64,000 nucleotides of DNA, from contig NZ_KB905370.1 of NCBI RefSeq assembly GCF_000378985.1, positions 62,001-126,000 on the forward strand, given 5' to 3'. Of the stretch, positions 7,037 to 61,882 are shown piece by piece. The first letter of the stretch is position 1, and each line of letters begins with the position of its first letter. Source of the stretch: Ensifer sp. BR816 (GTDB lineage: Bacteria > Pseudomonadota > Alphaproteobacteria > Rhizobiales > Rhizobiaceae). A program made the position numbers and the translations under genes. The notes beneath the pieces are model-generated. The model was not told where the DNA came from. It made no database searches and was given only the letters and a program-made list of their open reading frames with translations.

Positions 7037-7121
7037 GGCGCCGAAGCAACACGGGCTCCCGGCGTCTTGCATTGCCAACGCTACCACCTATGTGAACGGT
7101 GCTGCCCATTGGAGGATACCC

Positions 7122-12650: not shown

Positions 12651-12676
12651 AAAGTGCCGGTCATCCGGCACTTTGC
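12651..12676 (+). terminator. Terminator after the sco1-family gene
   Basis: A perfect 10-bp stem, AAAGTGCCGG with CCGGCACTTT, has a TCAT loop and is followed by TTTGCGTTTG. It begins 20 bases past the stop. Confidence 0.75.
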
Positions 12677-12759
12677 GTTTGTGCGCCAATCATGTTAGCG
12701 GCGGAGCCCGCGCGCCTGAACGAGGCGCGAAGGCCGTTGGGCAGCCGAAGGGAAGAACC

Positions 12760-13635
12760 TTGAGCGAGATACGTCTTTTCGTCACCACCACCGAGAAGCA
12801 GGCGGCAGCCGTACTCGACGTCATCAGCATGATCTTCGAAGACGATGGTTACGCCGTTGCGACGATGGAAATCGACGAGAAGCGCGACATCTGGGAAGCC
12901 TCCGTCTACATGATGGCGGACGAAGAGGAGAGCGTCGGATGCCGCCTTGCCGATGCGCTCGCCGCCGAATTCTCTCACCTTCCGATCGAGCGCGAGGTGC
13001 TGCCGGAGATCGACTGGATCGCCAAGTCTCTGGAAGGCCTCGCACCGGTGCGCGCCGGCCGTTTCGTCGTCCACGGCTCCCATGATCGCGACAAGGTGAA
13101 GACCGGCGAGATCGCCATCGAAATCGATGCCGGGCAGGCCTTCGGCACCGGCCACCACGGAACGACGGCCGGCTGCCTGGAAATGCTCGCCTCCGTGACC
13201 CACGCACGTCGCATCCGCAACGTCCTCGACCTCGGCACCGGAAGCGGCGTGCTGGCGATTGCCGCCTGGAAGCTCCTGCATGTACCGGGGCTCGCAACCG
13301 ATATTGATCCGATTGCTACCCGCGTCGCCGCGGAGAACGCGCGCCGCAACGGCGTCGCCGCCGGCCTGACCTTCGCGACGGCACCCGGTTTCCATTCGAC
13401 GACCTTCGGCGCACACGGTCCCTTCGATCTCATCATCGCCAATATTCTGGCGCGGCCACTGATGAAGATGGCGCCCCAGCTCGTCGCCAACCTCGCCCCC
13501 GGCGGCTCGGTCATCCTTTCCGGCATCCTTGCCGAACAGCGCTGGAAGGTGCTCGCCGCCTATAACGGCCAGCGGCTCAGGCATGTTCGGACGATCTGGA
13601 GAAACGGCTGGGTGACGATCCACCTGACGCAGTAG
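12760..13635 (+). CDS. prmA: Ribosomal protein L11 methyltransferase
   Basis: PrmA methylates lysines and the N-terminus of ribosomal protein L11, using S-adenosylmethionine. The 291-residue product has the N-terminal substrate-recognition domain and a C-terminal class I methyltransferase: the GTGHHGTTAGCLEML segment that precedes the SAM fold, motif I DLGTGSGVLAIAA at residue 157, acidic TDIDPIA, and the catalytic-loop NILARPL. I place the start at TTG 12760 because GAAGGGAAG lies just before it and the product then begins MSEIRLFVTTTEKQA as in homologues. Earlier in-frame starts overlap the preceding terminator. It is a single gene followed by a strong hairpin. Confidence 0.95.
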   Translation: MSEIRLFVTTTEKQAAAVLDVISMIFEDDGYAVATMEIDEKRDIWEASVYMMADEEESVGCRLADALAAEFSHLPIEREVLPEIDWIAKSLEGLAPVRAGRFVVHGSHDRDKVKTGEIAIEIDAGQAFGTGHHGTTAGCLEMLASVTHARRIRNVLDLGTGSGVLAIAAWKLLHVPGLATDIDPIATRVAAENARRNGVAAGLTFATAPGFHSTTFGAHGPFDLIIANILARPLMKMAPQLVANLAPGGSVILSGILAEQRWKVLAAYNGQRLRHVRTIWRNGWVTIHLTQ

Positions 13636-13648
13636 GCTTGGCCCCTCA

Positions 13649-13726
13649 CTACAGCGCCGTGCGTCTTATCAGACGTAATCAGACGTACAAAGGACGCTGC
13701 GGCACTTAGAATTGCTGGATGTTTTT
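13649..13726 (+). repeat. Rhizobial intergenic palindromic repeat, truncated copy A
   Basis: CTACAGCGCCGTGCGTCTTATCAGACG ... AAAGGACGCTGCGGCACTTAGAATTGCTGGATG (quoted in parts) matches the first half of the complete copy at 25643-25746 and then breaks off. AGACGTAATC is followed by a second AGACGTA, a small internal duplication. Confidence 0.7.
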
Positions 13727-13764
13727 GACCGAGCGGTGCAAGGCTTGTTCGGCAGCCCAAAATG

Positions 13765-13802
13765 AAAAGGCCGCCCGATCCATCATGGAGGGCGGCCTTT
13801 TC
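13765..13802. terminator. Strong symmetrical terminator between prmA and the small RNA
   Basis: AAAAGGCCGCCC and GGGCGGCCTTTT form a perfect 12-bp stem with A and T tails on the two sides, so it can stop transcription in either direction. It serves prmA on the plus strand and can back up the minus-strand RNA terminator next to it. Confidence 0.85.
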
Positions 13803-13950
13803 GAAACAAAGGCGATGCCGGAGCATCGCCCGCTGGCCGGCTTTTGACCGACCATGCCCGCGAGCTTGAGGAGGAGGAGCGCTCGAGCGGGCTCTACCGT
13901 TCCGAAATTGGCCGCCTTGAGGGAGGAGGAGAACAGACGACCAACTATCT
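13803..13950 (-). ncRNA. Probable alpha-r14 / 'cuckoo'-type small RNA with anti-Shine-Dalgarno loops
   Basis: On the minus strand, a 9-bp hairpin (13936-13944 with 13908-13916, TTGGTCGTC against GGCGGCCAA with two G-U pairs) shows CCTCCTCCC in its loop (complement of 13921-13929). A second hairpin (13857-13865 with 13881-13891, stems CCCGC and GAGC) shows CTCCTCCTCCTC in its loop. A perfect 8-bp stem GGCGATGC/GCATCGCC at 13811-13830, followed on the minus strand by TTTGTTT, closes the unit. Paired hairpins with CUCCUCCC-type loops define the alphaproteobacterial cuckoo family, to which the S. meliloti alpha-r14 RNAs belong; they bind ribosome sites of mRNAs. The 5' end is estimated. Confidence 0.62.
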
Positions 13951-14210
13951 CGGAACTGCAGTCTTTTGAACTGCCGGACCTTCGTCCGCGTTCGTTGGCG
14001 CCCTTATACCCTATCATTTCAATAGAGAAAGATACACCGGCGCATGGGAGCCATGCAGACCGCGCATATGTATGACAAATCGGAGGGAATCGTTAGCCGC
14101 TCGGCCTGTTGCTCATGGCAGGATGTCGCCTCTTTCCCCCGAAGCGCCGTTTCCGCTAACATGGTGCAACCTTCCCTGCGGTTCCCCGCCAAGCCCTATT
14201 GGAAATAATC

Positions 14211-16046
14211 ATGTTTCAATCCTTCGAAGTCACCTCCACGCCCCAGTTCGGCAAGGAGCGGGCCACCGCCTTGCGTGCCGCCTTCGCGCCGCTCGGCATC
14301 GACGGCTTCCTCGTGCCGCGGGCCGACGAATTCCAAGGTGAATACGTGCCGGCCTCATCCGAACGGCTCTCCTGGCTGACCGGGTTCACCGGTTCGGCCG
14401 GTATCGCTCTCGTCACGCAGCGTGAGGCGATCGTCTTCGTCGATGGACGTTACGTAACCCAGCTGAAGGAACAGGTGGACGGCAACGTCTTTTCCGGCGG
14501 CGACCTCGTCGGCAAGCCGCCGCATGTCTGGCTGGAGGCGCAGGCGCCGAAGGGTTTCCGGCTCGGCATCGATCCCTGGCTGCACACCGCGGCGGAGGTC
14601 CGGCGTCTCGAAAAGGCGCTCGCGGCAATTGGCGGCGCGCTCGTCTTTCTCGACCACAATCCGCTCGACCGGCTCTGGACGGACAGGCCTGCCACTCCCC
14701 TCGGCCGCGTCGCCATCCAGCCGATCGAGCACGCGGGACAGTTGGCCAAGGACAAGATCGCCACGATTGCAGCAAGCGTCGCAAAGGCCAAGGCGACGGC
14801 GGTGATGCTGACCGACCCCTCCTCCGTCGCCTGGACCTTCAATATCCGCGGCAGCGACGTGCCGCACACGCCGCATCCGCTGGCACGCGCCATGATTCAT
14901 GCGGACGGCCGCGCCGAGCTCTTCCTCGACAAGCGCAAGACCGGCATCGAGCAGGAGGCCTATCTGACCCAGCTTGGGGATATTCTACCCCCTGGCGATC
15001 TCGACGGCCGGCTCGCGGCCCTCGCCGCGACCGGCGCGGCGATCATGATCGATCCAGACCTCGCTCCCTTTGCGATCGGCGAACTGATCCGGTCGAAAGG
15101 CGGCTCCGTGATCGAGGCGACCGACCCCGCGCGGCTGCCGCGCGCCTGCAAGAACCCGGCGGAGATCGCCGGTTCGGTGCGCGCGCATCTGCAGGACGGC
15201 GCGGCGATGGTGGAATTCCTCGCCTGGCTGGACAAGACCGAGCCGGGCAGCGTCACGGAAATCGGCGCGACGAAGAAGTTGGAGGCGGTGCGCACAGCCG
15301 CCGGCGAGCGCATGCAGAACCCGCTGAAGGACATTTCCTTCGACACGATCGCCGGCGCCGGCTCGCACGCCGCGATCATGCACTACCGCGTCACCACGGA
15401 CACTGACCGACCGATCGAGCCGGGAACCATGTTCCTGATCGACTCGGGTGCGCAATATATCAACGGCACGACCGACATCACCCGCACCGTCGCGATCGGC
15501 GCCGTGCCGGAGGAGCAGAAGCGCTTCTTCACCTTGGTGCTGAAGGGTATGATCGCAATCAGCACGGCGCGCTTCCCGACGGGGTCGCGCGGTGTCGATC
15601 TCGACCCGCTCGCCCGCATCGCACTCTGGAAGGCGGGTGCCGACTACGCGCACGGCACCGGCCACGGCGTCGGCTCCTATCTCTCGGTTCATGAAGGCCC
15701 GCAGCGGATCGCCCGGCTGGCGACCCAGGAACTGTTGCCCGGCATGATCCTTTCCAACGAGCCCGGCTATTATCGCCCCGGCGCCTTCGGCATCCGTATC
15801 GAAAACCTCGTTGTGGCCCGGGAAGCCGCAGCAATCGCCGGCGGCGATCTGCCGATGCTCGGCTTCGACACGCTGACCTATTGCCCAATCGATCGACGGC
15901 TCGTCCTGCCGGCCCTTTTGAGCGACGAGGAACTTGCCTGGCTCAACGATTATCATGCCGAAACGCGGGACAAGCTCATGCCGCTCATCGCCGGCGACGA
16001 TACGCGCCAATGGCTGGCGGCCGCAACGGAACCCGTTTCCCGTTGA
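14211..16046 (+). CDS. pepP: Xaa-Pro aminopeptidase (aminopeptidase P, M24B family)
   Basis: A 611-residue cytoplasmic metallopeptidase that removes the first residue when proline is second. It has two creatinase-like N-terminal domains (LVPRADEFQGEYVP, LTGFTGSAG) and a C-terminal pita-bread domain. All five metal ligands of M24 enzymes are present: D411 and D422 (IDSGAQYINGTTDIT), H485 (GTGHGVGSYL), E517 (SNEPGYY) and E531 (IRIENLVV). The length is that of the long, three-domain eukaryote-like form common in rhizobia. The ATG at 14211 follows a weak GGA. Its promoter region shares the space with the divergent small RNA. A hairpin follows the stop. Confidence 0.93.
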   Translation: MFQSFEVTSTPQFGKERATALRAAFAPLGIDGFLVPRADEFQGEYVPASSERLSWLTGFTGSAGIALVTQREAIVFVDGRYVTQLKEQVDGNVFSGGDLVGKPPHVWLEAQAPKGFRLGIDPWLHTAAEVRRLEKALAAIGGALVFLDHNPLDRLWTDRPATPLGRVAIQPIEHAGQLAKDKIATIAASVAKAKATAVMLTDPSSVAWTFNIRGSDVPHTPHPLARAMIHADGRAELFLDKRKTGIEQEAYLTQLGDILPPGDLDGRLAALAATGAAIMIDPDLAPFAIGELIRSKGGSVIEATDPARLPRACKNPAEIAGSVRAHLQDGAAMVEFLAWLDKTEPGSVTEIGATKKLEAVRTAAGERMQNPLKDISFDTIAGAGSHAAIMHYRVTTDTDRPIEPGTMFLIDSGAQYINGTTDITRTVAIGAVPEEQKRFFTLVLKGMIAISTARFPTGSRGVDLDPLARIALWKAGADYAHGTGHGVGSYLSVHEGPQRIARLATQELLPGMILSNEPGYYRPGAFGIRIENLVVAREAAAIAGGDLPMLGFDTLTYCPIDRRLVLPALLSDEELAWLNDYHAETRDKLMPLIAGDDTRQWLAAATEPVSR

Positions 16047-61441: not shown

Positions 61442-61686
61442 GGGAGAATCAAAAGGCGCCACCGGTGCAGTTCTGAGACGTTCACGGAGCGTTACAGGCG
61501 TTTACATTAACCTCCCCGAAGCAATTGTGAAAAAAATGTGGCAAGAGGAATCAAGAAGCGAATTCATATGCTTGGGCCTGTGAATATGCGAGCTTGGCAA
61601 GGGCGATTTCGCGCTGCAGCACAAGTTTCGCTTTCACGCGCCAGATTTTCGCCCTATGTTTTACCGGTCAACGCAGGGAGGATCCT
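61442..61686. promoter_or_regulatory. Region before the 25-codon peptide gene
   Basis: No conventional gene is seen. Just before the small gene lies TTTCAC, 17 bases, TATGTT (61634 onward), a fair match to a sigma-70-type promoter. Confidence 0.4.
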
Positions 61687-61764
61687 ATGGGACTTACACA
61701 TTCGTTGAATGTCCTCATGATCAGTGCAGCGTTCGCATTCGTGGCCGTGATGCTTTTCGTCTGA
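61687..61764 (+). CDS. 25-residue hydrophobic membrane peptide
   Basis: ATG at 61687 to TGA at 61762-61764. The product is almost one membrane helix (LNVLMISAAFAFVAVMLFV) after a short polar MGLTHS. A very strong GGGAGGATCCT ribosome site is placed before the ATG, with a fair promoter upstream and a hairpin terminator after it, which together make a real gene likely despite the size. I recall similar tiny proteins in rhizobia, but the function is unknown. Confidence 0.6.
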   Translation: MGLTHSLNVLMISAAFAFVAVMLFV

Positions 61765-61882
61765 GAAGAGGCCGCTTAAAGTCCAAGCCGAAAGGGACTG
61801 AAACTTTCGGAAGTCCAATTTGCAGCAATCAGGTAAGGCAGGCCGCGCCCTACGAGCACCCGGTCTGAGCTGCGAAACAGCT

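Follow-up and report, generated by a model that had tools for sequence, protein, structure and literature searches.

Does the minus strand between prmA and pepP encode a small RNA of its own and, if so, to which class does this RNA belong and which regulator drives it? The locus lies in a 64,000-nucleotide stretch, hereafter the window, of the source genome (6.95 Mb, 3 contigs). Here an initial annotation had placed a small RNA with anti-Shine-Dalgarno (aSD) loops at 13803-13950. Our analysis finds this small RNA to be real, conserved and encoded on the minus strand. The position and strand of the annotation were right, but the RNA is predicted to be longer, spanning about 13764-13995; the 5′ part (13951-13995), a plain third hairpin and a second terminator reaching 13764 had been missed. 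The names prmA and pepP for the flanking genes are those of the initial annotation. The features of the locus are listed below in the order of the forward strand.

12673-13635, plus strand: prmA, the convergent neighbour of the small RNA (tblastn)
13764-13995, minus strand: the small RNA, predicted at about 232 nt, or about 192 nt should transcription stop at the first terminator
13764-13796, minus strand: second terminator, GGCCGCCC/GGGCGGCC (genus alignment)
13803-13831, minus strand: first terminator, GGGCGAUGC-UCCG-GCAUCGCCU followed by UUGUUUC (folding, genus alignment and terminator scan)
13835-13853, minus strand: hairpin 3, without an aSD motif (genus alignment)
13856-13892, minus strand: aSD hairpin 2, with the loop CUCCUCCUCCUC at 13879-13868
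13894-13961, minus strand: aSD hairpin 1, with the loop CUCCUCCUCCC at 13931-13921
13968-13993, minus strand: 5′ hairpin, GAAC.CGGA...UCCG..GUUC (RNAalifold, 32 sequences)
14003-14008, minus strand: -10 element TATAAG (spacing from the box)
14042-14066, minus strand: putative LsrB/VtlR-type activator box, TGCG-N6-GCATGG-CTC-CCATGC (sequence motif)
14199-16046, plus strand: pepP, the divergent neighbour of the small RNA (tblastn)

The conserved unit, as delimited in a 32-sequence alignment of the genus, runs from the box (14066-14042) through the -10 element (14008-14003) to the end of the second terminator at 13764. The 5′ end at 13995 is predicted from the spacing of the box and the -10 element, and the starts predicted from each of these agree. 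The RNA begins with the 5′ hairpin, continues with two that carry CUCCUCCUCC loops and a plain one, and closes with two terminators.

A conserved structured RNA on the minus strand

Conservation is the main evidence for this RNA. The loop motif alone is within chance, with five occurrences of GGAGGAGG in the window against 2.5 expected and 13 of 100 shuffles reaching five. The region folds with a z-score of -6.35 for 13762-13955 and of -3.59 for 13803-13950, and in both cases none of 200 shuffles is as stable. Across the genus alignment (32 sequences, 31 distinct rows), RNAalifold gives 65 pairs, and standard pairs occupy 98.9% of the 1983 cells; shifting the partner by 1-3 columns lowers the paired share to 28-49%. 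The initial annotation had described stems kept by G-U as well as Watson-Crick pairs and had proposed a search for compensatory changes in related genomes, and both are borne out by the alignment. Changes on both sides affect 21 cells, compared with 6.6 in shuffles (0/500 reach 21), and six pairs (17/500 shuffles reach six), with the caveat that related rows can exceed shuffles even without structure. The number of further pair types is no better than in shuffles (221/500). Over the same 65 pairs, 210 cells are G-U and 7 are A-C, and this large excess of G-U places the RNA on the minus strand. This strand folds better than its complement in all 32 genus sequences and in 72 of the 79 loci (32 from the genus and 47 from outside it) that make up our wider set. 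We rejected the idea that the RNA encodes a protein in Sinorhizobium, as neither the frame nor the start of the longest ORFs is constant across the 32 sequences.

The 5′ hairpin includes two pairs with changes on both sides in the genus alignment. The two minus-strand aSD hairpins proposed initially are present at the place given for them, as judged by sequence and folding. In hairpin 1, the loop is invariant in all 32 genus sequences and the stem pairs vary with compensation (C-G becomes U-A, for example, in 10 of the 31 distinct rows); across genera, its stem sequence differs widely while the loop is kept. Hairpin 2 has 10 pairs, nine of them invariant within the genus, so its structure is tested only by cross-genus comparison; the stem GCCCGC/GCGGGC corresponds to GUCCGC/GCGGAC in many other genera. 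Hairpin 3 is kept, with G-U changes, in 26 of the 31 distinct rows and is deleted in five. The 8-bp stem followed by a T run that had been noted at 13803 is there (GGCGAUGC/GCAUCGCC, then UUUGUUUC), at the first terminator. The second terminator, in which one pair changes from G-C to A-U in 5 of the 31 distinct rows, is absent from the output of a simple terminator scan and is possibly shared with prmA on the opposite strand. When the 79 loci are folded, the aSD sites are unpaired with a mean probability of 0.95, compared with 0.37 for the whole RNA; at least two CUCCUCC sites are found in 73 loci and at least one in all 79.

Distribution and synteny

Of 33 genus genomes, a DNA search found the RNA in 32 and missed it in one that is 70% complete. 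A covariance model built from the conserved RNA core (R1) matches 55 of 297 genomes and 22 of 109 genera of the family, with one match per genome, under the strict filters used in all searches of more than 40 genomes, where a non-match does not equal absence. Fifty-two of these 55 matches (30/30 plus 22/25; 19 genera) adjoin prmA and/or pepP. By tblastn, prmA lies in the fetched stretch of 48 (30/30 plus 18/25) and pepP in that of 50 (29/30 plus 21/25). At the level of the order, 12 of 397 genomes match, 11 of them from the same family (two of these below 30 bits); the single match outside the family, at 26.7 bits, is weak. The 79-locus set includes one match of 29.8 bits that is flanked by both prmA and pepP (L104) and leaves out three weak ones that have neither gene in the fetched stretch (L103, L105 and L106; 34.9, 26.8 and 24.3 bits). 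Matches in a spirochaete (L146) and an archaeal bin (L153) were ignored, being without prmA and pepP neighbours. In Sinorhizobium, the RNA is probably a stand-alone, single-copy element.

Relationship to Sm26/SmelC531 of S. meliloti

The RNA is very probably the counterpart of Sm26/SmelC531, with which it agrees in locus, strand and size, a comparison made by position, strand and length and not on the Sm26 sequence itself. Schlueter 2010 reported SmelC531 as a 238-nt minus-strand RNA at 2321050-2321287, listed as Sm26 (PMC2873474). Valverde 2008 placed Sm26 between SMc04453 (reverse) and SMc01885 (forward), aligned it with S. medicae, R. etli and R. leguminosarum, and detected Northern bands of about 200 and about 135 nt in S. 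meliloti (PMC2573895). In S. meliloti 1021, where rnpB is found at 2356793-2357134 on the minus strand (PMC7143759), the distance from SmelC531 to rnpB is 35,743, and in S. meliloti 4H41 that of the present RNA is 35,776; given a length difference of 56 between the rnpB annotations, the distances agree to within 0.1 kb. The order in 4H41 is prmA forward, a 108-aa ORF reverse, the RNA reverse and pepP forward. This arrangement suits the orientations published for Sm26, with flanking genes of opposite orientation, one forward and one reverse, if SMc04453 is the 108-aa ORF and SMc01885 is pepP. The reverse ORF between prmA and the RNA (L121, 3273-3599, minus strand) is perhaps HNH-like, as judged by eye.

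Unlike the RNA described here, Sm26 was predicted in 2008 to be a longer RNA of 392 nt (PMC2573895). The Sm26-positive microarray probe maps to 2321429-2321478, 142 nt upstream of the 5′ end of SmelC531 (PMC2573895, PMC2873474), and the published Sm26 intergenic length (1270) disagrees with 4H41. Together, these three points suggest that a longer form of the RNA may exist. Among the papers searched, Valverde 2008 and Schlueter 2010 are the two that name Sm26 of S. meliloti, and one of them also names SmelC531. The term Shine-Dalgarno is not applied to Sm26 in the text of either (in one of them it occurs in the reference list only), and the cuckoo paper may list Sm26.

The constant synteny (52/55) would also suit a local element, that is, an antisense or terminator region tuning prmA or pepP, as would a second terminator that may serve both strands and a longer minus-strand form that, from the probe signal, may reach nearer pepP. 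We consider such a local role distinctly improbable: the predicted RNA at 13764-13995 overlaps neither the prmA nor the pepP coding sequence, a conserved box of its own precedes it, and in 4H41 a reverse ORF stands between it and prmA.

Relationship to alpha-r14, cuckoo and other RNAs

The initial annotation assigned the RNA to the cuckoo class and to the alpha-r14 RNAs, and the second of these assignments fails. The Rfam alpha-r14 covariance model (RF02344, alpha-r14/NfeR1), run on the locus as had been suggested, returns no gathering-level match (18.9 bits, cut-off 58.8); three other loci of the source genome exceed the same cut-off. Alpha-r14 RNAs carry the aSD motif in all three hairpins, the terminator included (PMC10746234), whereas only two hairpins of the present RNA do so, and hairpin 3 and both terminators are without the motif. 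Alpha-r14 identity was rejected on this score and architecture. The two kinds of RNA are alike in having CCUCCUCC loops on stems of variable sequence, together with a terminator. Weak cross-scores between them (the alpha-r14 model on this RNA, as above, and R1 at 23 bits on an alpha-r14 locus) might be taken to indicate a decayed alpha-r14 paralogue. We find this scarcely credible, because the structure is well conserved, the architecture and locus are different, and the genome has true alpha-r14 loci at other places.

Two further loci score below the alpha-r14 cut-off. In the source genome, a fourth, sub-threshold alpha-r14-like locus (L035, C1:1398275-1398388, minus strand; 40.6 bits) has some of its aSD loops shortened. 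In locus L098, from genus g61, the terminator loop bears a third aSD motif; this locus scores 39.3 bits with the alpha-r14 model and 22.3 bits with CcsR1 (RF02791, cut-off 65.3) and is possibly a bridge between alpha-r14 and the present kind of RNA.

The cuckoo assignment stands in part. Under the definition used here, which is that given in a citing paper (PMC4504443), the looser description fits; hairpin 1 answers it best, but hairpin 2 has a fairly conserved stem and a loop that is mostly CCUCCUCCU. The original class assignment is right in outline. We know of no Rfam model named cuckoo.

Other known RNAs were also compared. The CcsR1 model (RF02791) gives no match in 13600-14250 at E up to 5, and the present locus is not among the five loci of the source genome found with the AbcR1 model (RF02345). 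PmaR of Agrobacterium was rejected: in the available description, its interaction site is C-rich and not anti-Shine-Dalgarno, and it is limited to Agrobacterium and one close strain. A text search of R. etli and Agrobacterium surveys gave no match. The VtlR-activated small gene atu1667 of Agrobacterium (PMC7486931) was considered as a possible counterpart. Elsewhere in the window, the Rfam model for the Atu_C9 small RNA matches at 61666-61853 on the plus strand (66.9 bits, cut-off 40).

A conserved upstream box and its likely regulator

Two LsrB sites of S. meliloti provide a reference for the box. At nfeR1, the site TGCA-N6-GCAT at -72 to -60 is supported by gel shift and point mutations (PMC10746234), and at abcR1, the site GCAT-N3-TG-N3-T at -61 to -49 is supported by gel shift (PMC8844928). 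The pattern TGC(A/G)-N6-GCAT is found at most 450 nt upstream in 75 of the 79 loci and in 18 of 19 genera, compared with a mean of 0.9 loci after base shuffling; 28 loci have the exact TGCA form. Sixty-six loci have the GCATGG form of the box, and among these the distance from the start of GCATGG to TATAA is 48 nt in 46 and 49 nt in four, with TATAA absent at that spacing in 16. The distance from GCATGG to hairpin 1 is variable, at about 98 to 296. A generic sigma-70 promoter scan found no promoter.

The box in the window matches the abcR1-type site at six of seven fixed letters. The exact abcR1-type box, GCAT-N3-TG-N3-T, occurs on the RNA strand in none of the 79 loci (1.6 expected) and on the opposite strand in 31 (1.9 expected). 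Within the source genome, abcR1 (L041, identified by tandem order) has this box beginning at -61, and the same -61 box is seen at two further alpha-r15 loci and at L033, the one alpha-r14 locus with an LsrB-type box, which also has TGCA-N6-GCAT; it is missing at three other examined loci (L042, L032 and L034). The present RNA further resembles AbcR1 (alpha-r15, RF02345) in combining an upstream LsrB-type box with CU-rich motifs in unpaired regions. The dyad GCATGG-N3-CCATGC is found at three places in the whole source genome and the reversed pattern at none. At one dyad (L051, C1:2106250-2106264), the downstream ORF, which starts MLGRKVPVVTFRTRVRDE, is peroxiredoxin-like by eye. Because the box is like those of the LsrB-activated abcR1 and nfeR1, control of the present RNA by LsrB is predicted and, as far as sequence can indicate, likely.

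A DUF1127-like ORF outside the genus

The initial annotation had pointed out that no DUF1127 gene lies nearby, and this is correct: the source genome has six DUF1127 matches, all hundreds of kilobases away. Relatives differ, in that a DUF1127-like ORF precedes the RNA in 14 of the 47 loci outside the genus, in seven genera; these ORFs were picked by eye, as were the 33 loci without one. The ORFs have 49-58 codons and are preceded by AAGGA in 12 of 14 cases; 11 of them reach 3-7 nt into hairpin 1, and the other three stop 11-17 nt short of it. No ORF is common to the 32 genus sequences. Neither Pfam (10 ORF products) nor NCBIfam (six of these) yields a significant match, to DUF1127 or to any other family. 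When 11 of the 14 proteins are combined into a profile, hhalign aligns it with five DUF1127 proteins of the source genome over 31 columns (E 1.7e-6, probability 90). On a tree of 52 loci, made from PrmA and PepP by a quick tree method, presence and absence of the ORF need at least five changes, three of them forced by well-supported branches, a count that cannot tell gain from loss.

One reading of these ORFs is that the functional product throughout the family is a small protein and that the hairpins are its 3′ UTR. The AAGGA in front of most of the ORFs would fit, as would the third codon positions, which differ most in all 10 ORF pairs compared; yet amino-acid-altering codon changes exceed silent ones in three of 10 pairs, and the RNA is kept in every locus, including the 33 outside loci without the ORF and the 32 genus loci with none in common. 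We regard this reading as very unlikely.

The arrangement recalls the CIN1 locus, where DUF1127 genes lie next to CcsR-type RNAs; in Rhodobacter, the DUF1127 protein CcaF1 is encoded on one transcript with the CcsR RNAs and takes part in their maturation (PMC10253847). As in that system (ccaF1-CcsR1-4, RF02791), a DUF1127-like ORF is followed by aSD hairpins in the 14 loci outside the genus. Unlike the four CcsR RNAs, the present system has two aSD hairpins in one RNA. Its ORF is remote from DUF1127 and absent in Sinorhizobium, no DUF1127 gene cotranscribed with the RNA is found in the source genome, and an LsrB-type box is present instead of the RpoHI/RpoHII promoter of ccaF1. The present RNA is probably a branch of the CIN1 kind that stands alone in Sinorhizobium. 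More tentatively, a redox-controlled mRNA/sRNA hybrid may have shed its coding half in several lineages, leaving a stand-alone regulator that would be a third LsrB-driven aSD RNA beside AbcR1 and NfeR1; this one family would then display the change from mRNA to sRNA at several stages. In the same tentative scheme, the last DUF1127-like codons would form one side of an aSD hairpin.

Elsewhere in the source genome, the alpha-r14 RNA L033 (nfeR1-like by its box; C1:5556470-5556592, minus strand) is closely followed on its own strand by two DUF1127 genes, at 5556117-5556224 and 5555566-5555670.

Candidate targets and proposed mechanism

Two genes of the window, pfp and creA, had been named as carrying target sites. 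The first is upheld by GAGGAGG four bases before its ATG, but creA (the ORF near 7111, identified by eye) has only GGAGGA. Across the source genome, GGGAGGAG-N4-9-ATG occurs 42 times and the reversed pattern 13 times. Among the first 30 of these 42 sites, 27 start an ORF of at least 60 codons, and Pfam identifies among the 27 products seven periplasmic solute-binding receptors, two permeases and one MFS transporter, a share uncorrected for background; seven of the 27 are dehydrogenases or other oxidoreductases of that kind. This set resembles those reported for NfeR1 and the AbcR RNAs, a resemblance that any aSD RNA would share.

Mutating the CCUCCUCCC motif abolishes silencing by NfeR1 (PMC10746234), and loop 1 of the present RNA contains this motif. 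Its presence argues against an RNA whose main task is to hold a protein (an RNA-binding one of the DUF1127 type or other) or another RNA, with the loops serving as a binding platform and not as an antisense seed. The cotranscription of the CcsR RNAs with CcaF1, together with the DUF1127-like ORFs in 14 of 47 outside loci, would be in keeping with a holding role, and the lack of a local protein in Sinorhizobium stands against it; on balance, we consider it unlikely.

The explanation that we favour, and as a whole consider probable, is that of a Sm26/SmelC531 counterpart that silences many mRNAs at their Shine-Dalgarno sites. It builds on the observed structure and strand, on loops that folding leaves open, on the neighbours, on a box at mostly fixed spacing and on the match in position with a known transcript. 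The RNA would have a promoter of its own in the interval between prmA and pepP and start at the predicted 5′ end, and the redox-sensing LysR-type regulator LsrB would probably bind the box and activate transcription. The two open CU-rich loops would pair with the Shine-Dalgarno sites of many mRNAs, those for transport receptors among them, and pairing would block translation, as has been shown for NfeR1. An mRNA/sRNA hybrid may be the ancestor of the locus, with its DUF1127-like frame absent in Sinorhizobium. Counting against this explanation are the lack of forward abcR1-type boxes in the 79 loci, the Sm26 probe upstream of the predicted start and the 392-nt prediction. As the loops would suit many mRNAs, target specificity is not accounted for by it.

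Implications for rhizobial regulation

There is little doubt that the transcript is already known in S. meliloti, where it was reported in 2008. To this known transcript, the present analysis adds a class, an extent, a likely regulator, a link to a DUF1127-like ORF and candidate target sites. The loops could mask the ribosome-binding sites of many mRNAs, and the RNA may share a redox-controlled circuit with better-known rhizobial regulators. If LsrB drives the RNA, one redox sensor would control at least three RNAs aimed at ribosome sites, a division of labour that is open to experiment. Finally, the loci with and without the ORF offer a natural experiment on how a protein-coding transcript may become a regulatory RNA.
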